Assembly: GCA_002840435.1 (NCBI GenBank)
Contig: PHAT01000011.1
Span: 1-33,603, forward strand
DNA from: Deltaproteobacteria bacterium HGW-Deltaproteobacteria-6
GTDB taxonomy: Bacteria; Desulfobacterota; Syntrophia; Syntrophales; Smithellaceae
DNA length: 33,603 nucleotides
Direction of reading: 5' to 3'
Both the position numbers and the translations under genes were made by a program. Under the pieces are notes generated by a model that saw nothing but the letters and a program-made list of their open reading frames with translations, did not search any database and was not told where the DNA came from. Shown one piece after another: positions 1 through 17,638 of the stretch (position 1 is the first letter of the stretch; every line of letters starts with the position of its first letter).

Positions 1-1798
1 CTGTCCAGATCAGCGCCAGACCGGCGTTGGCCAGATTGCGGTATTGGACTTCTTTCTCCAGCAACTCCTGCTCTTTGAGCTTGCGGTCGGTGATGTCCAG
101 TATGAAAGCGGCAATCTGTTCATCCGGGCCCGGCAGCCTCGTGAGCGTGATTAAGATCGGAACACGGGTTCCATCGGGCCGGATATATTCCTTCTCATAG
201 GATGTGCCGGCTTCCAGTTTGCCGAGCGCTGCGATAGCTTTCTCATCGGCTTGCAGCCATTCGGGCGGTGTGATGGCGCGCCAATCCACTTTGCCGGATT
301 CAAAATCCCGACGCGCAAATCCGATCAGGTTCAAGTAGTAATCATTGGCTTCCAGAACCTTTCCGGAGGCCTCGGCAATAATCATCCCGACGATATTGGA
401 GTCCATGAACCGCCGGACGCGATCATAGGCCAGACGCATATTTTCTTCAGCTTTAATGCGTTCACTGATGTCCACGATGGTGGTTATGAAAAAGAGAGGT
501 TCACGCTGCCGGTCGCGCTGAATGGCCACGCTGATATCCGCCCAGATGTATGATCCGTTTTTATGGAGATAGCGCTTGATAAAACGGATGGAGTCCTGCT
601 CGCCGTTCAGCAGCAAATTCAAATGGCTTTGTATGGCGTCAATATCTTCCGGCGGCGTAACGTCCTGCCATTTCATGTTTCTCATCTCGTCTTCGGCATA
701 GCCCAGCATATCGCAGTAAGCTTTGTTGACATTTATTTCACCCGTCGGAAGTGTAATCGATTTTCCGACACTGGCCGCTTCGAAGACCAGCCTGAATTTC
801 TCTTCACTCCGGCGCAGGGCGGCTTCGGCTTTCTTCCGGAAGGCAATTTCCCGGAAAAGCTTCCAGTTCCAGGCGCCCATTCCCAGCAGAATTATGGCAA
901 ATACGGCCAGCGCATACCAAAGCAGGGTATAGTCGAAGCCATGCTCGTAACGGATGGGCAGCCATTTCCGGTAGATATCGTTACGCTGGGTTTGAGAAAT
1001 GGAATCGAGTGCCTTTTGCAGGATTCCCGCCAGTGGCGCCCAGTCAAGGCGTACAGCCATGGATTGGGCATTAACATAGGGAGTCTCTCCGGCGATTTTG
1101 AGGTTCGCCATTTTCAGTTTCGCCATGTAATAACCAACCACCAGCATATTATCGATGTAGGCAAAAACATCGCCGCGCTGCAGCGCTTTCAGGCCTTCCT
1201 CGACGGTCTTAACCCGGACGAGTTGAACGGTGGGAAAATCCCTCGGAATCCAGTCCGTAACCGCATAGCCATCAACCACGGCGACCTTTTTTCCCTCCAG
1301 TTCATGCATGCCGTCCAGGTACGTGACATCCGCATGGGCGACAATGACAATCGGGATTTTCATGTAAGGCCGGGTAAATGCCCAGAACTTTTCCCGTTCA
1401 GGCGTCACGGCCACGGACGTGGTCATATCAATATCTCCACGTTTCAGCCGGGCATAGGCTTCCTGCCAGGTAAGGCCCCGGATGCGCTCAAATTTCATAT
1501 TCAGCATTTCTTCGATGAGCGCCAGATAATCCCCGGCCATACCGACAAACTCTCCTTTTTCATCGGCAAACTCCACCGGCGGCCATCCCGGGTCCTGAAC
1601 CACCCGGATAACGGGATGAGCGGCAAGCCAGGCGCGTTCGTCCGCCGTCAATTTTTGAAGAAAGGCAGGCGAAGCCGCAGGAGCCGTATTACCCTGGTCC
1701 GCCCGTGCTGCAGGGGCAATGCCCGCAAACCCGATGAAGAGCAACAGCAGCACAACGGCTGCAAGCCCCGGGCGATTTCTTCTTTGTTGAAAACCCAT
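1..1798 (-). CDS. Periplasmic-binding-domain PAS sensor protein (3' end outside window)
   Basis: The reading frame is open from the ATG at 1798 to the window edge, about 599 codons, so the C-terminus is missing. An AGAAGGG Shine-Dalgarno lies just upstream. In order: a signal peptide (residues 1-34, ending near ARA), a family-3 solute-binding (amino-acid-binding type) domain at about 45-280 with the usual RVVQDPGWPP and RGDIDM stretches, one membrane segment near 290-310 (LLWYALAVFAIILLGMGAW), then PAS domains beginning EEKFRLVFEAA and RRFMDSNIVGMII and the start of a third (YRNLANAGLALIWT). The likely role is sensing a small periplasmic ligand and signalling inward. Whether a histidine kinase or other output follows cannot be seen. 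It is the last visible gene of the minus-strand sensory operon, separated from the preceding gene by a repeat. The first PAS resembles the first PAS of the gene at 7267-9921. Confidence 0.85.
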   Translation of the reverse strand, partial: MGFQQRRNRPGLAAVVLLLLFIGFAGIAPAARADQGNTAPAASPAFLQKLTADERAWLAAHPVIRVVQDPGWPPVEFADEKGEFVGMAGDYLALIEEMLNMKFERIRGLTWQEAYARLKRGDIDMTTSVAVTPEREKFWAFTRPYMKIPIVIVAHADVTYLDGMHELEGKKVAVVDGYAVTDWIPRDFPTVQLVRVKTVEEGLKALQRGDVFAYIDNMLVVGYYMAKLKMANLKIAGETPYVNAQSMAVRLDWAPLAGILQKALDSISQTQRNDIYRKWLPIRYEHGFDYTLLWYALAVFAIILLGMGAWNWKLFREIAFRKKAEAALRRSEEKFRLVFEAASVGKSITLPTGEINVNKAYCDMLGYAEDEMRNMKWQDVTPPEDIDAIQSHLNLLLNGEQDSIRFIKRYLHKNGSYIWADISVAIQRDRQREPLFFITTIVDISERIKAEENMRLAYDRVRRFMDSNIVGMIIAEASGKVLEANDYYLNLIGFARRDFESGKVDWRAITPPEWLQADEKAIAALGKLEAGTSYEKEYIRPDGTRVPILITLTRLPGPDEQIAAFILDITDRKLKEQELLEKEVQYRNLANAGLALIWT

Positions 1799-1810: not shown

Positions 1811-1970
1811 TCTCGTGTTTCGTCATTCGTCGTTCGTAGTTCGTGAGGCCCCACGCGGGTGACGCGAGCATTGTTCGTTTTTTACGAGATACGAACGACG
1901 TGATACCACCCTGCGGGTGGTAAGCGAGCTACGTCCTTATCGTTTCACGAACCACGAGATACGTCTTTCG
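1811..1970. repeat. Dispersed palindrome-rich repeat, copy A
   Basis: This intergenic stretch is built of short words such as CGTCGTTCGTAG, ACGAGATACG and ACGAACGACG in both orientations. A hairpin around 1902-1927 pairs CCACCC with GGGTGG. The same words and the same hairpin recur, inverted, at 11541-11640. The repeat runs into the 3' end of the neighbouring sensor gene, supplying its last codons and TGA stop. No transposase is nearby. Confidence 0.7.
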
Positions 1971-3453
1971 TTGTCTCCAGCTCCGCAATCCGCTTTTTGA
2001 GTTCGGCCATTTTCAGTTCCCTGCCCACAAAGACCTTATTGGTTTCTTCAAGCTGGGCGATGGTTTGTTTCAGTTCAGCCGTTCGCTCCTGAACCTTCTG
2101 CTCCAGTTCGAAGTTGAGCTGATGGATTTGCTCCTCCGCCAGCTTGCGCTCGGTGACATCTCTGAACATCCCGACCAGACATTCTTCCCCGTCGAAAATA
2201 AGCGGAGAAGAGCTGATATCGGCGAAAAATACCGTCTTGTCTTTTCTCATGACCGGAATATTCCGCGCGGTTAATATTTCTTTTCTCCGCAGCATTTCAA
2301 AGTGACGGATGACGTGCGGGAGGGATTCTTCGGGATGAATATCAGACACTCCCAGCTTCAAAATTTCTTCCGTCGTATAACCCAGCATCTCACATATTTT
2401 CCGGTTAGCCATGGAGAGCCTTTGATCGCCAATTCGAGCGATAAGAATTCCATCGGATGCGGAATCAAAGATGGTTCTGAACTTGAGTTCCGCTTCTTTA
2501 AGCGCGGCTTCCGCTTTCTTTCGTTCCGTGATATCGCGAATGATCATGCTTGTGCGGTCCTGATGCTCCCGATCCTGGAACAGCGCCGTGGATACCTCCC
2601 CCGGAAACGTCGACCCGTCTTTACGCAGAAAGGTCAGTTCACCGGTAAATTTACCGGTCCGGGCCCGTTCCGCAAGCGCCGCGGCCAGGCGCGGGTCCGT
2701 GTTATCCAGAATTCCCGCGCGTCCCGCGGTTTTGATTTCGTCCTCGCTTCTGCCGAAAATGCGGCAGGCGGCAGGATTGGCGGCGAGAATTTCCCCGTCC
2801 GGAGTCGTAAGCAGGATGGCATCGTAACTGGAATTGAATAAAAGCCGGTAGCGCTCCTCGCTTTCGTCCAGCACGGCGGCGGCCTGAATGGTGGAGAGAT
2901 GGTCCGAAAGAACGGTGCCGGCCAGAATGGTCGCCAGCGGATATAGCAGGAGAATGGGAAGACCCAGACGTTTGAATGTTGCCAGCCAAACGCCCTCGGG
3001 CAGCGTGACCATCAGGGCCACCATTACCGCATGAACGGCAAGTCCCATGCTGTACAGGCGAAGGATCGACGGCGGCGAAATGAAGGGCTTGAAGCGATAG
3101 TAAGCCACAAGGCCGATGATTGATGACTCCAGAATGACCAGAACGCCCATCGCCGTGCCGATGCCGCCCAGCGCGACACGGCAGGCAAGAACGATGGCGC
3201 AGGACACAGCGGCTGTCCAGGGTCCGAAAAACAGGGCGCAAAGGCTGAGCATGACGGAGCGGCCGTCGAAAATCAGTCCCTGACCCAGATTGAGCGGCCG
3301 CAGCATGCCGAGTACGGCCACGCTGCCGAACAAAACACCCTGAAGCAGAACACCCGTGCGGGTATCCCGGGGCCAGCGCCTGTCGATGAACCCGGAGATT
3401 ACGCTCAAGGCCACCAGAAGCGCCAGATTCAAAATCAAGTCGAGATAAACCAT
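1945..3453 (-). CDS. 5TM-type membrane PAS-PAS sensor without kinase domain
   Basis: A 502-residue protein. Residues 1-190 hold several membrane segments and the motif GLIFDGRSVMLSLCALFFGP, which resembles the 5TM receptor domain of LytS-type kinases. PAS 1 is at about 200-312 and PAS 2 at about 322-438, then a coiled coil to the end. The tail at about 472-493 (NKVFVGRELKMAELKKRIAE) is shared with two neighbouring proteins. No HisKA, HATPase, GGDEF or EAL domain is present, so any output must come through a partner. The start is the ATG at 3453 with AAAGGGGGG upstream. The last eight residues or so come from the flanking repeat. PAS 1 is close to the PAS of the gene at 3532 (both have GELTFLRKDG and TSMIIRDI), which suggests local duplication. 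The ligand is unknown. Confidence 0.85.
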   Translation of the reverse strand: MVYLDLILNLALLVALSVISGFIDRRWPRDTRTGVLLQGVLFGSVAVLGMLRPLNLGQGLIFDGRSVMLSLCALFFGPWTAAVSCAIVLACRVALGGIGTAMGVLVILESSIIGLVAYYRFKPFISPPSILRLYSMGLAVHAVMVALMVTLPEGVWLATFKRLGLPILLLYPLATILAGTVLSDHLSTIQAAAVLDESEERYRLLFNSSYDAILLTTPDGEILAANPAACRIFGRSEDEIKTAGRAGILDNTDPRLAAALAERARTGKFTGELTFLRKDGSTFPGEVSTALFQDREHQDRTSMIIRDITERKKAEAALKEAELKFRTIFDSASDGILIARIGDQRLSMANRKICEMLGYTTEEILKLGVSDIHPEESLPHVIRHFEMLRRKEILTARNIPVMRKDKTVFFADISSSPLIFDGEECLVGMFRDVTERKLAEEQIHQLNFELEQKVQERTAELKQTIAQLEETNKVFVGRELKMAELKKRIAELETTKDVSRGS

Positions 3454-3487
3454 GTCCCCCCTTTAAAGAATAATTACGGCGATCCTC

Positions 3488-3522
3488 AATCGTTGTAATC
3501 GTCTTTTAAAATCGCTGTAATC
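3488..3522. repeat. Pair of 13-bp direct repeats between two operon genes
   Basis: AATCGTTGTAATC at 3488-3500 and AATCGCTGTAATC at 3510-3522 differ at one base. Their starts are 22 bp apart, about two helical turns. They fill the 78-base gap between the response regulator and the 5TM sensor gene. A protein-binding site is possible but unproven. Confidence 0.35.
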
Positions 3523-3531
3523 TTTCCCTAA

Positions 3532-4623
3532 TCACGTTTTTCCCTCCAGCTCAGCGATTCTTTTCTTGAGTTCCATCATCTTCAGCTCCCTGCCCACGAA
3601 TACCCGGTTCAGATCTTCCAGCTGGGCGATGGTGCTGCGCAGTTCGGCTGTCCGTTCACCGATTCTCTTTTCCAGATCTTCGTTGAGCTTGCGGATTTCT
3701 TCGAGCGCCGCCTCCTTCTGGGACTCCGCCTGTTTACGCCCGCTGATATCACGGATAATCATGCTGGTTTTGAGCTTGCCTTCGGCGTCTCTGAAAATAA
3801 CGGAAGATATTTCGCCCGGAAACTTCGTGCCGTCTTTGCGCAGGAAAGTGAGTTCGCCGGCAAATCTTCCCGTCCGCTCCCGTTCTTCCAGCGCTTTCGG
3901 CAACCGCGGATCGGAAGCATCAACAACACCGTCTCTGCCTATCCTGCATATCTCAGCTTCACTCCTCGCGAAAATACGGCAGGCTGCCGGGTTGGCTTTC
4001 AGGATATTCCCGCCCGGTTCCGTCAGCAATACGCCATCCATACTGTTTTCAAATAAAGAACGATACCGTTCCTCGCTTTCCCGCAGGGAAAATTCAGCCT
4101 GTTTTCTTGACGCAATTTCAGCTTCCAGCGCCGAGTTGACCTCTTCGAGCTTCAGCATCTTATGTTCCAGTTTGCGGATCAGGGCTTCGTTGTACTCCTT
4201 GAGCACAACTTCCTCCGTATTCTGTTCCCGAGGTAAACTTGATTTTCCGTCTCTATTGGCCATCAGGACCGGCTCAATCCGGTTCAGAAATTCCGCAGGC
4301 TCCGTCGGTTTGACGATGAACGCATCCGCGCCCATGTTGAGCGCGAGTTTCTCGTCTCTCGGATCGGTATAGGTCGCCGTATAGAAGATGAAAGGGATAT
4401 GCCGCAGCTGCTCGTCCTTTTTTAGAATTCTGCAAAAGGTAAAACCATCCATTTCCGGCATCAGGATATCCGATATGACCATATCCGGCACGTTGGCCCG
4501 CACCTGAGCCAGAGCTTCGCTGCCGTTATGCGCCTCTTCGACTGTGTAGCCCTGGCCTGTAAGCAGCATGCGCAGAAGATAGAGATTTTCATCATTATCA
4601 TCGACGATTAAAATATGCTTCAT
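3532..4623 (-). CDS. Response regulator REC-PAS protein
   Basis: A 363-residue soluble protein. The receiver domain is at 1-118, with acidic pair D8/D9, phosphoacceptor D52 (ISDILMPEMDG), switch T82 and K105, so all expected residues are present. A coiled linker (about 140-180) leads to one PAS domain (about 183-300) and a C-terminal coiled coil ending RVFVGRELKMMELKKRIAEL. There is no DNA-binding, cyclase or kinase output domain. The ATG overlaps the TGA of the upstream histidine kinase gene (ATGA), which implies translational coupling and suggests that kinase is the phosphodonor. The shared C-terminal coil hints that it may pair with, or compete for, the same partner as the kinase-less neighbours. 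That last point is inference. Confidence 0.9.
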   Translation of the reverse strand: MKHILIVDDNDENLYLLRMLLTGQGYTVEEAHNGSEALAQVRANVPDMVISDILMPEMDGFTFCRILKKDEQLRHIPFIFYTATYTDPRDEKLALNMGADAFIVKPTEPAEFLNRIEPVLMANRDGKSSLPREQNTEEVVLKEYNEALIRKLEHKMLKLEEVNSALEAEIASRKQAEFSLRESEERYRSLFENSMDGVLLTEPGGNILKANPAACRIFARSEAEICRIGRDGVVDASDPRLPKALEERERTGRFAGELTFLRKDGTKFPGEISSVIFRDAEGKLKTSMIIRDISGRKQAESQKEAALEEIRKLNEDLEKRIGERTAELRSTIAQLEDLNRVFVGRELKMMELKKRIAELEGKT

Positions 4624-7244
4624 GACGTGGTTCCTCCCTTTAACGGCAGGGTGAAGGTAAAGGTGCTGCCCTTTTCCCAGACACTGGCGGCGCTTATTTC
4701 ACCGCCCATTAAATCGGCCAGACGCCGGCAGATAGCGAGCCCCAAACCTGTTCCTTCACTCTTTCGCGCGATGCCCGTGTCCAGTTGCCGAAACGGTTGA
4801 AAGAGTTCCCGCAGATCTTCAGGGCGGATGCCGATTCCCGTGTCAGAGACGCTGATTTGCACGGCAGGCACGGGATTTGACGTCCGGTCCGCGAAGGCCG
4901 GCCGGTATCCCGGGATCACCGCCGCGGACAATGTGATTATGCCCTGCTCCGTAAACTTGACGGCATTGGAAAGCAGGTTGAGCAGAACCTGTTCGACGCG
5001 GCGCTCATCGCCAACGGCTTCACCCACATCCGGCCCGATGCTGACGTTCAGGGTAAGGGCTTTTTTCGCGGCTGAAGGCGCCACCGTGGCTGCGGCTTTC
5101 TCAATCACGGCACGCAGGTCGAAAGGCTCGGCATACACTTTATACTGACCGGCCTCGATCTTGGATATGTCGAGCACATCGTTGATGAGCGATAAAAGAT
5201 GCTGTGAGCTGCCCTTTACCATCCCCAACTGCTTTCTTTGCTCGTCGGTGAGGGGACCCGCGAAGCCCTGCAGGATGATCCCGGTAAAGCCGATGATCGA
5301 ATTAAGCGGCGTGCGGAGTTCATGGGACATCGCCGCCAGGAAAGCGGATTTGATGCGGTCAGCCGCTTCGGCGCGCTCTTTGGCCACAGCCAGCTCATCC
5401 AGCGTTTTCCGGAGGGATTCTTCCATGATTTTGCGCTTGGTAATATCATTGCCTACGGACAGGATTTCCGTCAATGTGCCCGATTCATCGAAGATCGGTT
5501 TGTTCGTCCAGGCAATCCAGACCTTTTCGCCGTTTTTCCTGATATTTTCATTTTCATTAAAGGTATGTGTTTCGGGATTGCGGATAATATCCTCGATAAG
5601 CCAGGCAAGGTCTCGTCCTGACGATTCCAGAACCGGAACGATGGAACCCAGGATGTTCCGGCCGATGATTTCCGACTCGGCAAAACCGAAAAATTTCTGA
5701 GCGTAGGCATTGAAAAAAGTAATGGATCCGTCGGGGCCCCATCTCAAAATGATGCTGTTGGCGCTTTCGACAAGGTCGCGGTACTTTTTTTCGCTTTGCA
5801 GCAGGGCTGTTCTGACGATGTCTCTCTCTTCTATTTGCCGGACCAGCTGTTCGTTGGCGGCAACCAGCGAAGCGCTTCGTTCTTTAACAATTTCTTCGAG
5901 ATGCTCTTTGTAATCTTTCAATTCGCGCTCGGCGACTTTGCGGTCCGTGATGTCCCGTATGGATTCTATCGCGCCGGAGATGTTTCCTTCGCCGTCGATC
6001 AGGACTGATGCCGCGCCGGAGAGGTAGCGGTTGAGCTGAGTATTATATCGTTCAGCGTGCAATGTGTTCTCTCTTTTCTCCAGATAGTCGTAAGTTTCCA
6101 ACCGGGCCGGGTCGCTTTCTTTCATGACCAGATCAATCAGGATGGGACGGCGTTCTCCGAAAAAGGGGATGGCATATTCGTAATCGCATTTCCCGATCAT
6201 GTCTTTTTTGGATATGCCGCTCAAAACCTCCATCGCTCGGTTCCAGGCAATGACCTTTCCACGGGTATCGACGGCGAACGTCGCATCAGGGAGGAATTCA
6301 ATAATGTCATACAACTGCTTCCGGGCGGTAGAGCGGGACTTCTCTGATTCACTCCGTTCGTGCGTCAGCACCGATAAACAAAGCGTAATGATGGAAATGA
6401 CCCCGATATAGGTTTGAAGATAAAGGAGCGATTTTTGTGAGAGCTGACCGGTGAGAGAACCGGCGCCGCCGATGATGGAGAGAATCGCAATTCCTGAAAC
6501 CAGGATTACGGCCGCCGCCGAATACAAGCGCCCGAATCTTAATGCAATCCAGACCAGGGGAGGAATAATCAGGTAATCCAGCTGATAATCGTAACCGAAG
6601 ATCACACCCGTCGTTATCATCAAAACGACAAATACCATTACCGCTTCGATTAACTGTGCTCCGGTAATCGTTTGCGGCACCTTTTTTGTAAGCATGATGA
6701 TCATCGGGGAAATGATCAATATTCCGGCGGCATCGCCCAACCACCAGGTAAGCCACATTTGAGAGGCAACCGGCCATTGCCCGGTAGCCAGACAAAAGCT
6801 TACGACCCCGATCGAGGGACTGACCAGGGTGGCAAGCAGGCTTCCGAAAATAATGAAAACGAAGAGCTCTCTAATCGTGTTAAAGGGGTTTTCAGTTGCG
6901 GCAAAACGCCTGATGAACCAGGCTCCGATCAATCCCTCAAGCATGTTGCCGAAGGCGGTGGTGAGAGACGCCGCAAGATAGTACGCAGGTGCAAGACCTG
7001 CGCCTTTCAGGGCAAGCACATTGGCGAAAAAGGCGCCGACGAAAACCGCCGGCCCCATCTTGTATCCCCAGAGCAGAACAACAGCCAGAGCAATGCCGGA
7101 GGGCGGCCAGACGGATGTGGCGTTGGTGTTGCCGACGGCCAGCAGCAAGGACAACCTGGCCGTTATAAAATAGATAACGGCCGCGGCAATCATCATACCG
7201 CCGAAACGCAGACTGATGTTTGTTTCTCCGCTTTCTGCTTTCAT
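4620..7244 (-). CDS. MASE1-PAS-PAS sensor histidine kinase
   Basis: About 874 residues and the only visible kinase of the operon. The N-terminal membrane domain (about 10-300) matches MASE1, with the typical NATSVWPPSGIALA and WWLGDAAGILIISP stretches. Two PAS domains follow (about 310-440 and 485-608), each followed by a coiled linker. The HisKA H-box is AMSHELRTPLN with H641, and the HATPase has N (NLLSNAVKFT), G1 (DTGIG), F and G2 (GTGLGLAI) boxes intact. It is therefore a competent inner-membrane kinase; the stimulus is unknown. A GTG at 7250 is also possible, but the ATG at 7244 sits 5 bases after AGCAGG and is preferred. It starts 22 bases after the upstream sensor gene and overlaps the downstream response regulator gene by 4 bases. 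Confidence 0.93.
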   Translation of the reverse strand: MKAESGETNISLRFGGMMIAAAVIYFITARLSLLLAVGNTNATSVWPPSGIALAVVLLWGYKMGPAVFVGAFFANVLALKGAGLAPAYYLAASLTTAFGNMLEGLIGAWFIRRFAATENPFNTIRELFVFIIFGSLLATLVSPSIGVVSFCLATGQWPVASQMWLTWWLGDAAGILIISPMIIMLTKKVPQTITGAQLIEAVMVFVVLMITTGVIFGYDYQLDYLIIPPLVWIALRFGRLYSAAAVILVSGIAILSIIGGAGSLTGQLSQKSLLYLQTYIGVISIITLCLSVLTHERSESEKSRSTARKQLYDIIEFLPDATFAVDTRGKVIAWNRAMEVLSGISKKDMIGKCDYEYAIPFFGERRPILIDLVMKESDPARLETYDYLEKRENTLHAERYNTQLNRYLSGAASVLIDGEGNISGAIESIRDITDRKVAERELKDYKEHLEEIVKERSASLVAANEQLVRQIEERDIVRTALLQSEKKYRDLVESANSIILRWGPDGSITFFNAYAQKFFGFAESEIIGRNILGSIVPVLESSGRDLAWLIEDIIRNPETHTFNENENIRKNGEKVWIAWTNKPIFDESGTLTEILSVGNDITKRKIMEESLRKTLDELAVAKERAEAADRIKSAFLAAMSHELRTPLNSIIGFTGIILQGFAGPLTDEQRKQLGMVKGSSQHLLSLINDVLDISKIEAGQYKVYAEPFDLRAVIEKAAATVAPSAAKKALTLNVSIGPDVGEAVGDERRVEQVLLNLLSNAVKFTEQGIITLSAAVIPGYRPAFADRTSNPVPAVQISVSDTGIGIRPEDLRELFQPFRQLDTGIARKSEGTGLGLAICRRLADLMGGEISAASVWEKGSTFTFTLPLKGGTTS

Positions 7245-7266
7245 AAGCACCTGCTAATCTTTTAAA

Positions 7267-9921
7267 TCATTTCTTCTCCAACTCATCAATCTTTCCCTTG
7301 AGCTCCCGCATCCGCAATTCCCGGTCTACGAATACTTTATTGATCCGCTCCAATTCGGCGGTTTTAGCCGATAATTCAGCGGTGCGCTCAATGACTTTCT
7401 GCTCCAGGCTTGCATTGAGCGAAACGATCTCTTCTTCCGCCTTCCTGCGATCGGTAACATCCCACACCGTTGATATCACCAGTTGCTTGCCGGGAATTGA
7501 AGTATTTTTGGCCGTAATATAAGTCGTTCCTTCTCCCTTGCGGATGATGGGCACATTTTCCCAGAACATTCGGGCCGGATCGCCGCTCTCCATGTCGGTC
7601 AATACCCTCGTCCGTACTTGTTCTCTTATCTTTTCGTCTTCATAAACCACTTGCCAGAACGCGTCCGGATCTTTAAGCGCATCTCTGGTCGTGCGGTAAA
7701 ATTTGGGGAAATTGTCATTCATGTACTCAAACTTCACGGAAGGATAGACGGCGTTGACGGCGACGCCGATCGGAAGGGAGTCCATAACGGCTGTAATCAT
7801 CTCTTTGCTCTGGCGAAGCTCCAGCTCGGCCTGCTTCTGGGCGGTCACATCGATGGCCGTCGTCAGGAAATACGCAGGTTGATGGTCCGAATCCCGCATC
7901 AATTTCACACTGACATCCGCCCAGACAACGGCGCCGCTCTTGTGCAGATAGCGCTTCATAAAACGGGCGGTATCGGTTTCACCCGCGAGCAGCGTATTCA
8001 TTATTTTCTCGTTCGGTTCGACGTCGTCGGGATGCGTCAACTCCTGCCATTTTTTATGAACCAGTTCATCTTGTGCATATCCCAGCATCACACAGAAAGC
8101 TTCATTAACCTGCATTTCACCTGTCGGCTGCATGATTGATTTCCCCGCGTTGGCTGCCTCAAATACCTGGCGGAATTTTTCTTCGCTGGCCTGCAGCGCC
8201 ACGGCAGCGTCCAGTTCCCGGTGATAAAAGATGTTGCGCTGGCGCTGCCAGAAAATCCAGACCGCCGCCGCCGCTCCGAAAATGAACACACACACCATGA
8301 AAATCATCATGAGAAGATGTTGTCGAACAGGCGCGTCGATTTCATTTCTGTCCATACGCGCAACCATAAACCAGGGCGAATCCGGCACCGGCTTGAGCGC
8401 GGCCAAAACCCGCTTGCCGCGGTAATCGATGCCGTCCATGACGCCTTCTTCTCCGAGGGCTGCGCGGGCGGCCGGCAGATCCTGCCGGGACAGGGAAAAG
8501 CGCAGTTTAAGCGCCGTGCCTTTTTGAAATTTCAGTTCGTTTAAAAAGACCACCTCGTTGCCTTCGCGGCGGACGAGCAGTGTTTCCGCCGTTTTAACGG
8601 GTGTCGGCCAGCGCGAAATCATCGGATAGAGATAAACAGTCGGATCGATAACTAGGGCAACCGCGCCCAGAAAACGGCCATTTTCGACAATCGGATTGAT
8701 GATAGACAGTGAAATGGGCCGATCGGGGGCTTCCCGATGAAGATCCAGGAAAACAGTTTTTCCGGATTTTCGAATCGCCGGAATGAGCTTCTGAATTTCA
8801 TCGCATGTCCGGGGCGATTCGGAGACAACAGACTGCCGCACCCGGCCTGACGCGTCCATCAAAATCACATTCCTGTAATAGTAAACGGACGACAGTTGAC
8901 CAAGCCAGAGCCGCATATGCTTATTCGCGCCGGCGTCCGCCGGCTGGTCCATCACCCGGCGCACCAGCTGAGCAAAAACGATGTTTTTCTGCAGCAGCAA
9001 ACCGTCCGAAAGGCGTTCATTGCGCCACTGAACGATTTCCGCCACCTTCAGTTCCGCGATGGAAGACAGGGTGTTTTCCACTTCCATCCGGTGATTTTTC
9101 TCATAATTCCGGTAATACATGTATCCGGTCGCCGCAATACCGGTGGCAATCAGAACAAACAGGGTAATGAGGGCTACCGGCACGTTTTTTTCTTCACGAA
9201 ACGTCAGGGGTGAACGAAGGAACGAGTGGCGGAATACACCCCAGAAAATAATGAGCAATCCTGCGGCGATGAGCGGAAGCAGCGGATTAAACGTGAAATT
9301 GCGAATAATCGTGAACGCCGGAACAGCCGCAGCGACAGCCATGATGAATGTCCCCAGTCCGATGGTCAGAAATTGGCCCCGGTCCCGGCGGGCAATTCGA
9401 ACAGACGTGGCGGACAACACCGTGATGCCTATGACCACCAGCGCGTAGGAATAAACAAGGTGAACCCACATCCAGGGGCCGGGGATCCTCGCGCCGGTCT
9501 GGGCGATAAAAAATTGGCCCGCCTGGTGGAAGGCAACCGGCCTGATCACCCAAAACCCGTGCAGGGAACTGGTCCATATCACACCCTGCGTGATGATCGG
9601 AATAATGAGAAGGGCCGCAAGACGCCGCGGCGTCAGCCAGTTGGCGTGTCCGGTGAACTGAAGCATGAAAGTGATCCAGACCACAGGCAGCGTGGCAAGA
9701 CTGATAAACCGTAAATCGAACCAGAAAAGCGCCCACTCTCCGGTCGGCGCGATAATGGACAGTCCTTCCATGAGCGCCATCAGGCAGATAAGCAGGCAGA
9801 CCCACATAAATGCCGTACCGCCTGCCACATGACGATGGCGCCTGGAATAATCGGCCAGAAATCCCGAAATAGCAACCACGGCGGGAATGGACAAAAGATA
9901 CAAAATGAGCGCCCGGTTCAA
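7267..9921 (-). CDS. 7TM plus Cache plus PAS-PAS sensor without kinase domain
   Basis: The start is taken as TTG at 9921, because a perfect AAAGGAGG (9931-9938) lies 9 bases upstream. A longer frame beginning at TTG 9945 would bury that site. The product is 884 residues. It has an N-terminal 7TM sensor region like that of some histidine kinases (1-235), a further membrane segment (248-268), a large extracytoplasmic Cache-type domain (about 270-535), a membrane segment (536-557), PAS domains at about 580-700 and 702-828, and a C-terminal coiled coil. The tail NKVFVDRELRMRELKGKIDE matches the neighbours. No kinase or other catalytic domain is present. It is the first gene of the operon and has two separate membrane sensing modules. 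The coupled kinase is probably the next gene, by context only. Confidence 0.87.
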   Translation of the reverse strand: MNRALILYLLSIPAVVAISGFLADYSRRHRHVAGGTAFMWVCLLICLMALMEGLSIIAPTGEWALFWFDLRFISLATLPVVWITFMLQFTGHANWLTPRRLAALLIIPIITQGVIWTSSLHGFWVIRPVAFHQAGQFFIAQTGARIPGPWMWVHLVYSYALVVIGITVLSATSVRIARRDRGQFLTIGLGTFIMAVAAAVPAFTIIRNFTFNPLLPLIAAGLLIIFWGVFRHSFLRSPLTFREEKNVPVALITLFVLIATGIAATGYMYYRNYEKNHRMEVENTLSSIAELKVAEIVQWRNERLSDGLLLQKNIVFAQLVRRVMDQPADAGANKHMRLWLGQLSSVYYYRNVILMDASGRVRQSVVSESPRTCDEIQKLIPAIRKSGKTVFLDLHREAPDRPISLSIINPIVENGRFLGAVALVIDPTVYLYPMISRWPTPVKTAETLLVRREGNEVVFLNELKFQKGTALKLRFSLSRQDLPAARAALGEEGVMDGIDYRGKRVLAALKPVPDSPWFMVARMDRNEIDAPVRQHLLMMIFMVCVFIFGAAAAVWIFWQRQRNIFYHRELDAAVALQASEEKFRQVFEAANAGKSIMQPTGEMQVNEAFCVMLGYAQDELVHKKWQELTHPDDVEPNEKIMNTLLAGETDTARFMKRYLHKSGAVVWADVSVKLMRDSDHQPAYFLTTAIDVTAQKQAELELRQSKEMITAVMDSLPIGVAVNAVYPSVKFEYMNDNFPKFYRTTRDALKDPDAFWQVVYEDEKIREQVRTRVLTDMESGDPARMFWENVPIIRKGEGTTYITAKNTSIPGKQLVISTVWDVTDRRKAEEEIVSLNASLEQKVIERTAELSAKTAELERINKVFVDRELRMRELKGKIDELEKK

Positions 9922-10008
9922 GTCTGATTTCCTCCTTTGGGTCAATCAGGCCATCATGAAGGATTGACGGTAAAGGTTTTCAAATTGACGAAGCCCTGTT
10001 GATGACTA

Positions 10009-10195: not shown

Positions 10196-10322
10196 CATGA
10201 TGAAAATATATCGCCGTGAAGACAACCCTGAAAAGGACGTTTTTTCAACTGTATGGTAAAAATAACAAAGTTCTGTTATGGTTTGCCGTCGTCATTCCAA
10301 AAATCATAAAGTGAGAAGAGAC

Positions 10323-11540
10323 ATGCCGCAGGAAGACTTGAGTAAGCTGAAAATCGACCAATCGGTCAAAAAAAGTGTTACAGGCGGCCGGATCAAAAAA
10401 CCCTTCGTGATCGCCGGTCTGGTTTTCCTGCTGATCATCGGCGCTGTTCTGTACCGGCTTGGCGTGATTTCTCCTACGGCCACGGTGGATGTAACGACCG
10501 TTTCACTGGTGTATCCCGCTCAGTCCCTGTCGGTATTGAACGCCAGCGGTTACATCGTCGCTCAGCGCAAGGCGGCGGTAGCCTCCAAAATAACCGGTCG
10601 TCTGACGGCGCTTCTGGTTGAAGAAGGCAATCTGGTGAAAAAAGGGCAAATTCTTGCGCGGATGGAAAACGCCGACGTCACCGCCGGGAAAGGTCAGGCT
10701 GCGGCCAATCTGGCCAACGCGAAGGCGATGCTCAGGCAGGCGGCGGTGGAACAGGATAATCTTCAACAGGAACATGACCGTTACCGGAGACTGATCGCCG
10801 GCGGTTATGTGACTCAATCGGAATACGACGCGATCCATACCCGTTACCTGCGCTCGCAGGAAGCGGTAAAAGGGGCGCGGGCCGCAATGGAAGCGGCCGC
10901 AGCCGCGCTTTCGGGCGCTGAAGCAAGCATTGATTACACCTTGATCCGGGCTCCGTTTGACGGTGTGGTGCTGACTAAAAATGCCGACGTAGGCGATATC
11001 GTTACCCCGCTGGGAGCATCTTCCACGTCCAAAGCCGCCGTCGTCACGCTGGCCGATATGGATTCGCTGCAGGTGGAGGTTGATGTATCCGAAACCAGTA
11101 TCACACTCATCAAAGTCGGGCAGCCCTGTAATATTCAGCTTGACGCCCTCGCCGACCTTCGCTTCCGCGGCGTCGTGCATGCCATTGTGCCGACGGTGGA
11201 CCGCGCCAAGGCAACGGTTCTGGTAAAAGTGCGGTTTCTGGACAAAGATATCCGGATGCTGCCGGATATGAGCGCGAAAGTGTCTTTTTTGTCCCGTAAA
11301 CTCGCGGAGGAAGAGATCAAACCCAGATTGGCCGTTAATCAGTCGGCACTGGTCCGTGTGAAAGAAAAAAATATCGTCTATCTGATTCAGGAAAACAAAG
11401 TGCGCATGACGGCCGTATCCACAGGCGGAAAATTAGGAGACATGCAGGAGATCACGGCAGGCCTGAAACCGGGCGACCGCGTCGTGCTCAAACCCGAAGG
11501 ACTCACGGACGGAGCAAAGATCAAGGTGGCGGAGAGGTAA
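10323..11540 (+). CDS. MacA/HlyD-family periplasmic adaptor subunit
   Basis: A 405-residue membrane-fusion protein. One N-terminal membrane anchor (about 27-46) is followed by a biotinyl-lipoyl-like half-motif (VASKITGRLTALLVEEGNLV), a helical hairpin (about 110-200), the second lipoyl half (YTLIRAPFDGVVLTKNADVG), a beta-barrel domain and a C-terminal membrane-proximal domain (ITAGLKPGDRVVLKPEGL). This is the usual MacA/RND-adaptor order. It would link an inner-membrane exporter to the outer membrane. The exporter is most likely the MacB-type ABC system at 13306-16323. The ATG at 10323 has GAGAAGAG upstream. An in-frame ATG at 10278 lacks a ribosome site and would add a non-conserved basic stretch. 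The substrate cannot be told from sequence, and no outer-membrane TolC partner is in the window. Confidence 0.88.
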   Translation: MPQEDLSKLKIDQSVKKSVTGGRIKKPFVIAGLVFLLIIGAVLYRLGVISPTATVDVTTVSLVYPAQSLSVLNASGYIVAQRKAAVASKITGRLTALLVEEGNLVKKGQILARMENADVTAGKGQAAANLANAKAMLRQAAVEQDNLQQEHDRYRRLIAGGYVTQSEYDAIHTRYLRSQEAVKGARAAMEAAAAALSGAEASIDYTLIRAPFDGVVLTKNADVGDIVTPLGASSTSKAAVVTLADMDSLQVEVDVSETSITLIKVGQPCNIQLDALADLRFRGVVHAIVPTVDRAKATVLVKVRFLDKDIRMLPDMSAKVSFLSRKLAEEEIKPRLAVNQSALVRVKEKNIVYLIQENKVRMTAVSTGGKLGDMQEITAGLKPGDRVVLKPEGLTDGAKIKVAER

Positions 11541-11640
11541 TTCGTAGCTCGTAGCTCGTCGTTCGTAGCTCGAAGTTCGCTTGCCACCCGAGAGGGCGGT
11601 ATCTCGTTAAGAGACGAGTCACGAGATACAAACATCGAGA
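11541..11640. repeat. Dispersed palindrome-rich repeat, copy B
   Basis: It begins on the base after the adaptor gene's TAA stop. It contains tandem TCGTAGC words, CGTCGTTCGTAG, and at 11577-11603 a hairpin-bearing word matching the reverse complement of 1902-1927 with few changes (TACCACCC becomes TGCCACCC). CACGAGATAC is also shared with copy A. Function is unknown. Confidence 0.7.
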
Positions 11641-11658
11641 CACAAGGAGGTATTTTCC

Positions 11659-13224
11659 ATGCGCGTGTTTAAAAATGCCGAATTTATTTCCTGTGAAGAG
11701 AAAAATCGCATCTTCACCTGCCTGGTGGAAAAGGACGGGAAAATTGCATTTTCCGGCGATCAGTTGCCGGAAGAATTCAAGCCGGGCGAACCGGTGGATC
11801 TAAAAAACCGGTGCGTTCTCCCCGCGTTCGGCGACACGCACATGCACTTCAGCTCCTTTGCCTACTTCAATTCCGGCCTGGACTGCCGTGACGCGGGCGA
11901 CTTTGCAGAACTGGGAGAACTCATCCGCGCCTCGATCGACCGGAGGAAAAAAGAAAAAGTCATCCTCGGCTTCGGCTGTTCGGCGCACACCGTCCGCGAA
12001 AAAAAACTTCCGGACCGGCATGACCTGGATCGCATTACCGACCGGCCCCTGATGATTATCAAATACGACGGCCATGCCGCCGTCGGGAATTCCGCGCTGA
12101 TAGCTAAAATGCCGGCTGCAATTCTTTCCGACCCGGGATTTGATAAAGACACGGGCTGGTTTTATTTGAACGCTTTTTATCTGGCGGTAAACCGCATTAC
12201 GGCATCCGTTTCGCTTCCGGAGCTTTTCAGAAACCTGATTGCGGGAAGCGATGCGCTTGCCCGGAGAGGAATTGCTCTGGTGCATACGGCGGAAGGGGTC
12301 GGGTTCCCGCTGGATCTGGATGTGGATTTCATGCGCTTCGCCAACCGAGGCCTGCCGCCATTGTTTCAGGTTTTTTTTCAGACAATGGATGTCAAAAAAG
12401 TCCAGCGCCGCAAGTTGCCCCGCATCGGCGGCTGCTTTGCCAATGCGCTCGACGGCTGTTTCGGCTCGGAAGACGCGGCGCTCAAAGCGCCCTACACCAA
12501 TAACCCCGCCAACCGGGGCACGCTTTTTTATCCGCAGGCCGCAGTCAACGACTTTGTGATCCAGGCCAACCGCGCCGGTCTGCAAATTGCGGTGCACGCC
12601 ATCGGCGATGCGGCCATTGATCAGGCGCTGACCGCTTATGAAACGGCACTCAAGGATTTTCCCCGCACCGGCCATCGTCACATTATCATCCATGCCGACC
12701 TGATGGATGCAAAGGCTATTGAAAGAGCTGCAAAGCTCAATCTCTGCATCGCCCTGCAGACGCCGTTTTTATACTGGCCGCAGGAGCCGGTGGAATACCT
12801 TCAGCGTATTCTGGGACAACGTGTGGATAATCTGATACCGCTCAAAAGCATGCTGGATGCCGGCCTGACCATTGCGGGCGGCTCCGACGCGCCCTGCACG
12901 CTGCCCGATCCTGTCGCCGCGATTTTCGCGGCCTGCAATCACCCCAATGCGAATGAATCCGTATCGGTTCTGGACGCTCTGCGCATGCACACGTCATCGT
13001 GCGCGAAACTTTCTTTTGACGACAACACGCGGGGAACGCTGACGAACGGGAAGCTTGCGGATTTTGTCGTACTGGATAAAAATCCCCTGCAGATGCCAGC
13101 GGAGCAGCTCAACACCATCAAGGTCGAAGCCCTGTATCTGAAAGGTGAAAAATATGAAAGACAGGGGGAGCGAAGCATTGGGAGCCTGTTGATGGATTCG
13201 GTAAGGAATAAATATGGACGATAG
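11659..13224 (+). CDS. YtcJ-like metal-dependent amidohydrolase
   Basis: A 521-residue protein of the amidohydrolase superfamily. The metal ligands expected for the TIM barrel are visible: H61 and H63 (GDTHMHF), H313 (VHAIGDAAIDQAL), H345 (IIIHADLMD) and D410 (GGSDAP). GHAAVGNSAL near 138-147 is typical of the YtcJ group. Small N- and C-terminal beta segments form the usual composite sandwich, ending LADFVVLDKNPL. No signal peptide, so it is cytoplasmic. The likely chemistry is hydrolysis of an amide or related C-N bond; the substrate is unknown. AAGGAGG lies 10 bases before the ATG. The gene separates the adaptor from its presumed ABC transporter and has repeat sequence on both sides, so it may be an insertion into that operon. 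Confidence 0.85.
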   Translation: MRVFKNAEFISCEEKNRIFTCLVEKDGKIAFSGDQLPEEFKPGEPVDLKNRCVLPAFGDTHMHFSSFAYFNSGLDCRDAGDFAELGELIRASIDRRKKEKVILGFGCSAHTVREKKLPDRHDLDRITDRPLMIIKYDGHAAVGNSALIAKMPAAILSDPGFDKDTGWFYLNAFYLAVNRITASVSLPELFRNLIAGSDALARRGIALVHTAEGVGFPLDLDVDFMRFANRGLPPLFQVFFQTMDVKKVQRRKLPRIGGCFANALDGCFGSEDAALKAPYTNNPANRGTLFYPQAAVNDFVIQANRAGLQIAVHAIGDAAIDQALTAYETALKDFPRTGHRHIIIHADLMDAKAIERAAKLNLCIALQTPFLYWPQEPVEYLQRILGQRVDNLIPLKSMLDAGLTIAGGSDAPCTLPDPVAAIFAACNHPNANESVSVLDALRMHTSSCAKLSFDDNTRGTLTNGKLADFVVLDKNPLQMPAEQLNTIKVEALYLKGEKYERQGERSIGSLLMDSVRNKYGR

Positions 13225-13235
13225 GCTGTAGGCTG
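13222..13235. repeat. Short tandem repeat at a stop codon
   Basis: TAGGCTG occurs twice head to tail. The first three bases are the amidohydrolase stop codon. The 81-base gap to the next gene holds nothing else recognisable. Confidence 0.4.
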
Positions 13236-13305
13236 AAGACCGAAGGCAAAACCATCAACTCTTGTCATTGACAAATAAGCAAATATTGAGATTACATCCA
13301 GGGAA

Positions 13306-14016
13306 ATGATGATCGAAGAAAAAAAAGCAATTGTTGAAATCAACAATATTTATAAGTCCTATCATCGGGAAAGCCTGGTGGTGCCTGTGCTGTATGATAT
13401 CACCTTTGACATTGCCGAAGGGGAATTTCTGGCCTTGATGGGACCGTCCGGTTCCGGCAAGACCACACTTTTAAATCTGATCGCCGGCATCGACAAGGCG
13501 GATTCCGGCACCATCCATGTGGGCGATATCGACATCACCACGCTTTCGGAGACCGAACTTGCGGCCTGGCGCGCAAATTCCGTCGGCTTCATCTTTCAGT
13601 TTTATAATCTGATTCCCGTACTCAAGGCGGTGGAAAATGTCGAGTTGCCGCTGCATCTGACCACGCTGTCCAAAAAAGAAAGGCGGCAACATGCGGAAAT
13701 GGCCCTGAACATGGTGGGACTGGGGCACCGGATGGATCACTATCCCAGTGAAATGTCCGGCGGCGAACAGCAGCGCGTAGCCATCGCCCGCGCCATCGTG
13801 ACCGATCCGACCATTCTGGTGGCCGACGAACCGACCGGCGATCTGGACCGCGTCTCGGCCGAGGAAATTCTTTCCATGATGGAGCGCCTGAATCAGGACA
13901 TGGGCAAGACCATCATCATGGTCACGCACGATCCGCGAGCGGCTTCCCGCGCTTCCGTGCTGCGCCATCTGGATAAGGGGTATCTCAACCATGATGCTCG
14001 TCAAAATCCTCTTTAG
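13306..14016 (+). CDS. LolD/MacB-type ABC transporter ATPase
   Basis: A 236-residue nucleotide-binding subunit. Walker A is GPSGSGKT (46-53), Q-loop Q98 (FIFQFYNL), signature SGGEQQR (151-157), Walker B ILVADE with catalytic E175, and H-loop H208 (VTHDP). The sequence around the Q-loop and D-loop fits the LolD/MacB/FtsE branch, which works with FtsX-type permeases. This is consistent with the two such genes that follow. Its end overlaps the first permease by 26 bases. It would power substrate extrusion or periplasmic mechanotransmission rather than import. The first of two adjacent ATGs is used, with AGGG upstream; the second would change the start by one residue. Confidence 0.93.
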   Translation: MMIEEKKAIVEINNIYKSYHRESLVVPVLYDITFDIAEGEFLALMGPSGSGKTTLLNLIAGIDKADSGTIHVGDIDITTLSETELAAWRANSVGFIFQFYNLIPVLKAVENVELPLHLTTLSKKERRQHAEMALNMVGLGHRMDHYPSEMSGGEQQRVAIARAIVTDPTILVADEPTGDLDRVSAEEILSMMERLNQDMGKTIIMVTHDPRAASRASVLRHLDKGYLNHDARQNPL

Positions 14017-15148
14017 AAACGCCTTTCATAACAAGCTCAGGAGTTCGCTCACCATTTTGGGCATTGCCGTGGCCATCCTGGCGTTCGGTTTACTGCGCAC
14101 GGTGGTCAGCTCCTTTTACGCGGGCGTGGAAGCGGCATCCACCTCGCGCCTCGTCACACGCAACGCCATTTCCATTATCTTTCCACTGCCCATTTCCTAC
14201 ACGGAAAAAATCCGGCAGGTGGAAGGCGTCAAACTGGTGTCCTACGGCAACTGGTTTGGCGGCGTCTATATTAATGAAAAAAACTTCTTTCCGAATTTTT
14301 GCGTGGAGCCCCATACCTATTTCGCCCTGTATCCCGAATTTGTTCTGGATGAAAAACAGAAAAGAGCTTTTATGGCCGACCGCAAAGGCGCTGTGGCGGG
14401 GAAAAAACTGGCGGCCAAATACGGCTGGCGGGCAGGTGATACCATCACGCTCAAAGGAACCATCTATCCGGGCAACTGGGAGTTTATCCTGCGGGCGATT
14501 TATACGGGCCGCGATAAGACCGTTGATGAAACGCAGTTTTTCTTCCATTGGGCTTATCTCAATGAAGGGATAAAAAGAACGTGGCCCGGCTCGGCCGAGC
14601 AGGTCGGCTTTTACATGATCGGCGTGGCCCGGCCCGATATCGCGCCGGATGTGGCGCTCACGATCGACAAATTATTTAAAAATTCTCTGGCGGAAACATT
14701 GACGGAAACGGAAAAGGCTTTCAATCTGGGCTTTATTGCCATGAGCGAAGCCATCGTCACGGCCATTCAGATGGTGTCGTTTATCGTCATCTTTATCATC
14801 ATGGCCGTTGTCGCCAATACCATGGCCATGACCACCAGGGAACGCACCGGCGATTATGCTATTATGAAAACGCTGGGGTTCGGCGGAGAGGACATCACGA
14901 TTCTGATCTTCGGCGAAGCGCTGGTGCTCACGCTTACCGGCGCACTGATCGGCATTATCCTGACGTTCCCTCTTGCGCAGATCTTCGGCCATCAGCTCTC
15001 AACGTTTTTTCCGGTCTTTCTGGTTTCCACCCGGACGATTTACATGGACATTGCCGCGGCGTTGCTCATCGCGTTTCTGGCGGCGATCATTCCCACCCGT
15101 CATGCGATCCGCATCCGCATTGCCGACGGTTTAAGGAGGATCGGCTGA
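13991..15148 (+). CDS. FtsX/MacB-family ABC permease 1
   Basis: A 385-residue inner-membrane protein with the four-helix FtsX layout. An N-terminal helix (about 16-36), a large periplasmic MacB-core-like domain (about 40-240), and three C-terminal helices with TRERTGDYAIMKTLGF before the second, the usual FtsX coupling region. The start overlaps the ATPase gene, and an adjacent second ATG is possible. The TGA overlaps the next ATG by one base (TGATG), implying equimolar production with permease 2. The pair probably forms a heterodimeric transporter with the ATPase, and the adaptor at 10323 would complete a MacAB-like exporter. Confidence 0.9.
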   Translation: MMLVKILFRNAFHNKLRSSLTILGIAVAILAFGLLRTVVSSFYAGVEAASTSRLVTRNAISIIFPLPISYTEKIRQVEGVKLVSYGNWFGGVYINEKNFFPNFCVEPHTYFALYPEFVLDEKQKRAFMADRKGAVAGKKLAAKYGWRAGDTITLKGTIYPGNWEFILRAIYTGRDKTVDETQFFFHWAYLNEGIKRTWPGSAEQVGFYMIGVARPDIAPDVALTIDKLFKNSLAETLTETEKAFNLGFIAMSEAIVTAIQMVSFIVIFIIMAVVANTMAMTTRERTGDYAIMKTLGFGGEDITILIFGEALVLTLTGALIGIILTFPLAQIFGHQLSTFFPVFLVSTRTIYMDIAAALLIAFLAAIIPTRHAIRIRIADGLRRIG

Positions 15149-16323
15149 TGACGGTGCCTTTTTCCTACAGCTTCCACAATCTCTGGAAGCGGCGTCTGAC
15201 AACCGCTTTGACGGTAGCCGGCATGGCGCTGGTGGTCTTTGTTTTTGCCGCCGTGCTGATGATGGCCGAAGGCCTCCAGAAAACACTGGTGGAAACCGGC
15301 TCGCCCCACAATGTGGTGGTGGTGCGCAAAGCGTCTCAATCGGAAGTCATGAGCACCATTGAGCGCAAATCCGCCGCCATTGTGGAAATGCTGCCCCAAA
15401 TCGCCGCAGGGGAAAGCGGCGAACCCCTGATGGCCAGGGAATCGGTCGTACTGATTGCCCTGAAAAAGAAAGGGGATGAACAGTCCTCCAGTCATTCCAA
15501 CGTGGTGGTGCGCGGCATCGGGGCGGAATCCCTGCGGCTTCGGCCGCAGGTCAAACTGGTGGCGGGCCGGATGCTGCGGATGGGCTCATCGGAAGTTATT
15601 GTCGGCAACAGCATCGCCAAAGGATTTCAGGGCGTGGGCCTGCAGCAGACTTTGACCTGGGGGATGCGCACCTGGACAGTCGTCGGCATTTTTGACGCGG
15701 GCAACACCGGTTTCAGTTCGGAAATCTGGGGCGATGTCGATCAGGTCATGCAGGCTTTCCGGCGCCCGGTCTATTCGTCGCTCATTTTCAAATTACAGAA
15801 TCCGGATAGCTTCGACGCCGCAAAAAAGTCCATTGAAAATGATCCGCGCCTTACGCTGGAAGCGAAACGTGAAACCCGGTATTACCGGGATCAATCGGAG
15901 ATGATGGCCAAGTTTTTACGGATTCTGGGCATGTCGCTGACCATCATCTTCTCCATTGGCGCGATCATCGGCGCGATGATCACCATGTATTCCGCCGTCG
16001 CCGGCCGCACGGCGGAAATCGGCACACTGCGCGCCCTGGGTTTCCGCAGGCGCAATATTCTGCTGGCGTTTCTGACCGAGTCGCTGCTTCTGGGTTTCAT
16101 CGGCGGGTGCCTCGGGCTTTTCTTTGCTTCATTCATGCAGTTTATCACGATCTCGACGGTCAACTTTCAGACGTTTTCCGAACTGGCTTTTAAATTCACG
16201 CTGACGCCCGGCATTATCGCGCAATCAATGAGTTTCGCGCTCGCGATGGGGTTGATCGGCGGCGTGCTCCCGGCGCTGCGCGCCTCGCGCCTGAAGATTG
16301 TGGACGCCCTCAGGGCTGCCTGA
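15148..16323 (+). CDS. FtsX/MacB-family ABC permease 2
   Basis: A 391-residue homologue of the preceding permease with the same layout. N-terminal helix LTTALTVAGMALVVFVFAAV, periplasmic domain to about residue 255, then three helices with TAEIGTLRALGFRRRNILLA before the second. The final LRASRLKIVDALRAA is a typical C-terminus of FtsX-type permeases. It lacks ATPase motifs, so it depends on the gene at 13306. The 188 bases after it (16324-16511) show no gene and no clear terminator. Confidence 0.9.
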   Translation: MTVPFSYSFHNLWKRRLTTALTVAGMALVVFVFAAVLMMAEGLQKTLVETGSPHNVVVVRKASQSEVMSTIERKSAAIVEMLPQIAAGESGEPLMARESVVLIALKKKGDEQSSSHSNVVVRGIGAESLRLRPQVKLVAGRMLRMGSSEVIVGNSIAKGFQGVGLQQTLTWGMRTWTVVGIFDAGNTGFSSEIWGDVDQVMQAFRRPVYSSLIFKLQNPDSFDAAKKSIENDPRLTLEAKRETRYYRDQSEMMAKFLRILGMSLTIIFSIGAIIGAMITMYSAVAGRTAEIGTLRALGFRRRNILLAFLTESLLLGFIGGCLGLFFASFMQFITISTVNFQTFSELAFKFTLTPGIIAQSMSFALAMGLIGGVLPALRASRLKIVDALRAA

Positions 16324-17441: not shown

Positions 17442-17515
17442 AAGGCATCCGGGCGCGCGGGAACCGGTTTCTGAACCCCCTGACAGGGAAGCCGTCTTCC
17501 AGTAATTCTGTTTTG

Positions 17516-17638
17516 CGAACGTGCATCATAATTGTCCGGTTCGGCAGCCGTTGTCTCCCCGACTTCGATCAATGTCTGCAAAATACCTTCAGCAATGCGA
17601 TCCTGAATCCTCGCATCCATCGGGTTCGCAAGGTGTCC
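17516..17638 (-). pseudogene. Remnant of an iron-containing alcohol dehydrogenase
   Basis: On the minus strand this stretch translates to about 40 residues, beginning GHLANPMDARIQDRIAEG and continuing ILQTLIEVGETTAAEPDNYD. This resembles the middle of YqhD/butanol-dehydrogenase-type iron alcohol dehydrogenases (the segment after the EQY motif). Similarity stops abruptly on both sides and the family's metal histidines are absent. I read it as an internal fragment left by decay. It was recognised by eye, so the family call needs a search. Confidence 0.55.

Follow-up and report, generated by a model that had tools for sequence, protein, structure and literature searches.

The locus studied here encodes several sensory proteins that stop shortly after a common C-terminal tail and carry no kinase core of their own. 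The window, by which we mean the whole stretch of DNA analysed (33603 bases), is an entire contig, C11, and the gene at 2–1798 on its minus strand is cut by the contig end. The signalling genes and their tails are as follows.

7267–9945, minus strand: membrane sensor HisKA_7TM-dCache-PAS with C-terminal tail, without a kinase core (Pfam)
7276–7389, minus strand: tail of the 7TM-Cache sensor, 38 codons (tail profile, 85.1 bits)
4620–7250, minus strand: MASE1-PAS-PAS-HisKA-HATPase histidine kinase, lacking both the tail and the box motif described below (Pfam, profiles)
3532–4623, minus strand: REC-PAS-tail protein (Pfam, AlphaFold2 model)
3544–3657, minus strand: tail of the REC-PAS protein (tail profile, 90.6 bits)
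1945–3453, minus strand: membrane sensor 5TMR_LYT-PAS-PAS with C-terminal tail (Pfam)
1975–2088, minus strand: tail of the 5TMR sensor (tail profile, 89.3 bits)
2–1798, minus strand: SBP_bac_3-PAS-PAS sensor, running off the contig end (Pfam)

Divergent from these, at 10278–16323 on the plus strand, lie genes that we take to encode a membrane fusion protein, an amidohydrolase, an ABC ATPase and two FtsX-like permeases; a similar fusion-protein gene is divergent from a tail gene on a contig of a relative (L093).

The tail as a conserved protein end

Positions and alignment agree that the proteins encoded at 1945–3453, 3532–4623 and 7267–9945 end in the same tail, as a sequence-only reading of this DNA had proposed. 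The 38 shared columns span ERTAEL to the final ELE in all three, and the tails of the second and third proteins are 84% and 66% identical, respectively, to that of the first, with 9, 3 and 2 residues between tail and stop. Pfam (E≤0.001) finds 5TMR_LYT, PAS, REC, HisKA_7TM and dCache in the three proteins, and HisKA, HATPase, GGDEF, EAL, HD and HTH are absent at this threshold, which bears out the earlier description of them as devoid of kinase, cyclase and DNA-binding domains. It was also correctly observed that the MASE1 kinase is the only kinase core between positions 1 and 16000 and has no tail (Pfam, tail profile). This gene sits between two tail genes, starting 16 bases past the stop of 7267–9945 and sharing its last 4 bases with the beginning of the REC-PAS-tail gene, whose product retains the receiver residues D8/D9, D52 and K105. 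An AlphaFold2 model of the REC-PAS-tail protein (from an alignment of 10 sequences; mean pLDDT 88.4, pTM 0.45) predicts, in order, REC, a helix, PAS and a single helix at 294–361 of 363 residues, with no hidden output domain in this one modelled protein. A relationship of the tail to the HisKA H-box was considered and rejected by eye, the tail V-G-R-E-L and the H-box S-H-D-L lying in registers one residue apart.

In the 4.09 Mb genome from which the window comes, a profile of the three tails matched seven times at E≤1, six times strongly: three times in the window (85–91 bits), twice on contig C14 (83–84 bits), once on C4 (60 bits) and once, weakly, on C5 (20 bits). These bit scores place the tail far above chance. 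In a scan of a named genome collection there were at least 585 pattern matches; 373 of those listed were confirmed and the best 80 were used, representing 78 loci. By record title these best 80 come from Desulfobacterota, Geobacter relatives, Bacteroidota, Patescibacteria, Nitrospirae, Treponema and archaea. The scan also shows the cultured Geobacter sp. OR-1 to carry the tail. Further tail matches lie outside the fetched set, among others in G311 (C255), G340, G441, G254, G224 (C33) and G265 (C5).

Across these lineages the tail marks the end of the chain. It can be seen that 214 of the 217 non-redundant tails with a visible stop, out of 218 in total, end within 41 residues past the tail, that the other three run on for about 197–198 residues, and that a kinase core follows in none of the 218 (duplicates with identical last 50 residues were removed, and stretches later chosen by their box are included). 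In a first set of 60 stretches, the window and three further stretches of its genome, 75 of 78 tails scoring at least 22 bits end within 35 residues; in the 78 loci of the named collection all 123 tails at this score end 1–41 residues past the tail, and there are no kinase cores. Residues are conserved right up to the protein ends in many lineages, and the tail is thus no random truncation product. The inputs that precede it are mutually unrelated and include 5TMR_LYT, HisKA_7TM/dCache, REC, HAMP, PAS-GAF, MASE3, a Tll0287-like domain, SBP_bac_3 and PocR. In two of the three long continuations the domain behind the tail is V4R (Pfam on L083 and L087). In the window's own genome V4R has a gene of its own, behind that of a tail-like PocR-PAS protein (L018:4028–7934), and in L044, a weaker relative, a stretch resembling the tail is internal and precedes PocR.

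A box motif in the enzymes beside tail genes

The kinases that follow tail genes share a motif, SQxALLNxVEDLN, hereafter the box, which lies in the coil of the kinase, usually shortly before HisKA. In an alignment of eight kinases the invariant box positions are A489, L490, N492, V494, D496, L497 and N498. By regular expression the box is present in 39 of the 53 kinases directly downstream (within 200 bases) of a tail gene; enrichment of the box among such kinases is partly circular, since the 24-row box profile was itself built from kinases adjoining tail genes. The MASE1 kinase belongs to the 14 adjacent kinases without a clear box, and a degenerate box was picked up by regular expression in seven ORFs at loci whose adjacent kinase has no clear one. 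A model of a box kinase (739 residues, mean pLDDT 71.8) is of low confidence at 475–493, where the box begins.

A held-out test was based on a model built from 11 kinases of the window's family (two 29-residue boxes of 13 were left out) and applied to 893 ORFs from 111 tail loci of other groups, with window-family and box-chosen loci excluded. At E≤0.1 there were 29 matches, including one HD-GYP and three SpoIIE-type-looking ORFs. The model matched 22 of 67 kinases lying up to 2.5 kb downstream of a tail gene as against 3 of 43 other kinases (kinases alone: odds 6.5, p 0.002), and these three lie upstream of a tail locus on the same strand. Matches were rare elsewhere (1/117 other downstream ORFs, 3/508 remaining ORFs and 0/158 tail ORFs), and the three remaining-ORF matches are SpoIIE-type proteins in tail clusters with V4R. 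With the cuts at their strictest, E≤0.001 and a distance of up to 200 bp, 7 of 40 adjacent and 8 of 70 other kinases matched, which is no significant enrichment (p 0.4); the model built from one family therefore has low sensitivity.

Seven relatives have 156 HisKA matches (E≤1e-5) but a single box match each, which by coordinates is in every case the kinase of the mapped tail cluster. The box is also found in outputs other than kinases beside tails, with HD_5 in L104, L108, L113, L121 and L301 and SpoIIE in L118 (Pfam), and in L107 a HisKA_3 ORF beside a tail has a weak box. Box kinases without a neighbouring tail but with similar flanking genes occur in three genomes (L303:6925–8670, L304:6826–8493 and L302:6436–8046).

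In the window's own genome, which has 55 HisKA matches, the box profile gives two matches at E≤1, both at tail loci. One, at C5:652393, is in a kinase next to the weak-tail PocR-PAS protein and V4R gene. The other, at C14:3828–3917 (42.8 bits), is in a kinase that follows tail genes on contig C14 (L016, 11738 bases), which is arranged as follows.

C14:3–146: last 47 codons of a tail gene, at the contig start
C14:156–2228: second tail gene, containing a run of N
C14:2355–4592: PAS-PAS-HisKA-HATPase kinase carrying the box
After the box kinase: REC-PAS-HD protein, then a hybrid kinase

Gene order in relatives fits C14 as the continuation of C11, and we take it that the two probably join, although no exact overlap of 9–200 bases was found between their ends. 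The tail fragment at C14:3–146 is then probably the lost 3' end of the SBP_bac_3 sensor at 2–1798; in a relative, SBP_bac_3-PAS and the tail form one protein (L062:8738–10624). The suggestion that the tail proteins are grouped around a single histidine kinase does not hold, as the window is a whole contig and C14, its probable continuation, has tail genes and further kinases. No box was found by profile in the window, nor by regular expression in the MASE1 kinase. At the C4 tail locus the kinase lies 1332 bp downstream, has no box and has a core similar to that of the MASE1 kinase.

Co-occurrence, linkage and fusion of tail and box

Tail and box occur in the same genomes. Among 149 relatives the tail is present in 32 (E≤0.01), the box in 26 (E≤0.001) and both in 25, so that 25 of 26 box-positive but only 7 of 123 box-negative genomes have tails (Fisher p 5e-21). 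In 395 genomes of the window's own phylum the corresponding numbers are 38 (E≤1e-4), 33 (E≤0.001) and 25, with tails in 25/33 box-positive against 13/362 box-negative genomes (Fisher p 2e-23). In 395 genomes of Bacteroidota, the phylum of a Prolixibacteraceae genome, the tail was found in 39, the box in 14 and both in 14, that is, in 14/14 box-positive against 25/381 box-negative genomes (Fisher p 7e-16). All three p-values are too small, because the genomes are related and not independent. Genomes that were reached by their tail alone (36, lying behind 37 of the 78 loci from the best 80 matches of the named collection) have the box in 31 cases, as a single match in 29 of these, and have none in five. 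In nine box-positive genomes the tail was missing at the cut used; a broader tail profile revealed a tail gene beside the box in six of them, while in G095, G332 and G359 it too found no tail. Mutual information over 70 non-redundant tail-box pairs summed to 166 as against 141 (s.d. 2.7), above all 200 permutations, but is not counted as evidence, the columns being anchored by pattern, kinship uncontrolled and the ranked list containing undefined values.

Tail and box are also found fused. In 12 of 20 fetched Bacteroidota stretches (from 39 tail-positive genomes, of which 19 were left out) a single chain runs PAS-tail-linker-box-HisKA, with the tail at about residues 200–248, followed by a linker of variable length, the box and the kinase core. 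The box was marked by the profile in 11 of these chains and read by eye in L345; Pfam, run on two of the 12, gives PAS, HisKA, HATPase and REC, and Hpt in one. That the Bacteroidota matches are coiled-coil false positives was considered and ruled out by the fetched sequences, 12 of which are tail-box fusions. The remaining eight stretches have terminal tails, with a box kinase nearby in three; of the five without a profile box nearby, four show a degenerate box by regular expression. The statement in the sequence-only reading that many PAS kinases have such a stretch ahead of HisKA is borne out in the 12 single chains, with the amendment that the box sits between the two. The order is reversed in L175:9275–11704, L202:7890–8642 and L101, single chains in which the box precedes a terminal tail, and these proteins could act as relays.

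Read most simply, co-occurrence, linkage and fusion suggest that the tail packs against the box and that a sensor sets the state of the enzyme in trans. We therefore favour, as the probable explanation, that the tails dock on the box and that kinase-less sensors in this way drive a separate output enzyme. The earlier idea of a docking helix through which several sensors feed one kinase gains indirect support from the same evidence, except that the kinase in question would be the one at C14:2355–4592 and not the box-less MASE1 kinase. Several sensors for each enzyme also fits the finding that 48 of 146 tail-bearing locus strands hold at least two tails.

A box ORF lies within 10 kb downstream of 112 of the 218 tails in the stretches read, a count that is low in part because many stretches are short, and within 200 bases of 53; five 5'-truncated kinases were left out of this adjacency table. 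In the 395 genomes of the own phylum, 33 of 39 box matches are inside a tail cluster and six are outside. Linkage alone would yield co-occurrence, and the tail might merely cap or stabilise the coil of a dimeric PAS sensor, with the box serving separately and the two co-inherited in operons without contact; the one unbroken helix predicted by AlphaFold2 would suit such a cap. Against this, genomes with an unlinked box have a tail elsewhere in 4 of 6 cases, compared with 13 of 362 box-less genomes without a linked pair (p 4.5e-5). The box moreover recurs beside tails in HD_5 and SpoIIE proteins, and tail and box are fused in one chain across a variable linker. We consider a mere cap unlikely.

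Docking of the tails on the window's own MASE1 kinase, as first envisaged, is favoured by the position of this gene as the sole kinase in the window, between two tail genes with a 16-base gap on one side and a 4-base overlap on the other, and by the similar box-less kinase core at the C4 tail locus. However, the MASE1 kinase has no box, the conserved neighbour of the tail genes in relatives is the box kinase, and most mapped clusters are without a MASE1 kinase, which together make this reading improbable. It is hardly credible that the tail proteins are remnants of kinases, shortened copies in the course of decay: loss of the 3' end of a Bacteroidota chain, which runs from tail into kinase core, could give such proteins, but the stop is conserved in 214/217 tails of many lineages with residues conserved to the end, and clusters often hold several tails (48/146 locus strands with at least two).

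A proposed route from sensor to enzyme and its relation to known systems

On the favoured reading, that of a tail docking on a box, the tail would prolong an ERT-type signalling helix leaving the last sensory domain, and end the chain there instead of entering a catalytic domain. It would then dock on the box in the coil of another protein, in most cases a histidine kinase and in other lineages an HD-GYP or SpoIIE-type enzyme, and the helices, once docked, would make up a common bundle by which the sensor controls enzyme activity. The 7TM-Cache, 5TMR, REC-PAS and probably SBP_bac_3 sensors of the window would all drive the box kinase of C14. Since its gene overlaps that of the REC-PAS-tail protein by 4 bases and the receiver residues are kept, the MASE1 kinase may join the circuit by phosphorylating this receiver, and the REC-PAS-tail protein would thereby serve as an adaptor between the MASE1 kinase and the box kinase.

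A wider reading, which we put forward tentatively and with less than even confidence, is that of a general plug and socket in bacteria and archaea, with exchangeable sensors, one hub enzyme per genome, varied outputs and box-then-tail relays. Its scope would take in Patescibacteria, Bacteroidota and, among archaea, Methanoperedens, ANME-2 and Woesearchaeota, with kinase, HD-GYP and phosphatase outputs.

The tail is reminiscent of three known arrangements. The signalling helix, or S-helix, has an ERT signature and is described as almost always flanked by two signalling domains in the same polypeptide (Anantharaman et al., 2006; PMC1592074). As in the S-helix, an ERT helix follows PAS, REC or membrane inputs and the outputs are histidine kinase, HD-GYP or PP2C; the signature is present as ERTAEL in all three window tails and in the model of the REC-PAS-tail protein it falls in the helix at 294–361. 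In contrast to the S-helix, the window tails do not lie between two domains, as the chains stop 2–9 residues later and the output would be in another protein; the parts of that paper available to us mention neither tail nor box. In the RsbT-RsbU system an enzyme is controlled through its coiled-coil linker by a partner protein, a mode of control proposed for phosphatases, cyclases and kinases (PMC12143880). The proposed action of a tail on a box is alike in that an output enzyme would be influenced at its coiled coil by another protein, whereas RsbT is not a sensor with a shared C-terminal tail, and the abstract of that work names neither tail nor box.

Chemoreceptors form the third parallel: several kinase-less receptors that share one module control the kinase CheA in trans. 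The tail proteins would likewise be several kinase-less sensors with one shared module and a kinase in trans. Their module is, however, a terminal helix of about 38 residues and not an MCP signalling domain, for which there was no match in the tail proteins scanned (Pfam, E≤0.001). Closest in sequence are Bacteroidota PAS hybrid kinases such as L329:2525–5524 and L332:3087–5663, which have the same tail and box but hold tail, linker, box, HisKA, HATPase and REC all in one chain. Searches of the open literature by sequence strings and topics, with subscription papers outside their scope, found no description of a tail-box system; the one paper matching a sequence string concerns chemotherapy drugs and, judged by its title, has no bearing on it.

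If docking of tail on box is correct, output-less proteins annotated as 'PAS domain proteins' would acquire a predictable target enzyme through the box in the same genome, and the convergence of several inputs on one kinase would be explained. The pair would also offer a short, portable means of wiring sensors to kinases or phosphodiesterases, and an example in which the transfer of a signalling helix from one protein to another can be tested.

Other genes recur at the tail loci of relatives. At L115:7918–9027 and L117:8055–9239 a tail gene has no kinase nearby, an arrangement conserved in one family; the gene after it is presumably an aminoacyl-tRNA synthetase, and G186, one of the genomes of this type, has a box kinase on another contig. 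ORFs of about 123–131 amino acids with the motif DLDVWR lie among the signalling genes (L053:417–788, L057:3898–4269, L067:12372–12767 and 17178–17549), and we take them to resemble the four-helix proteins of 23S rRNA intervening sequences. Just upstream of the tail genes of L054, at 11691–12701, lies a gene for an NMT1-like periplasmic binding protein (Pfam), which may bind ligand on behalf of the first tail sensor. ORFs of about 335–339 amino acids are found in the same place in L050, L052, L053, L057, L059 and L065.
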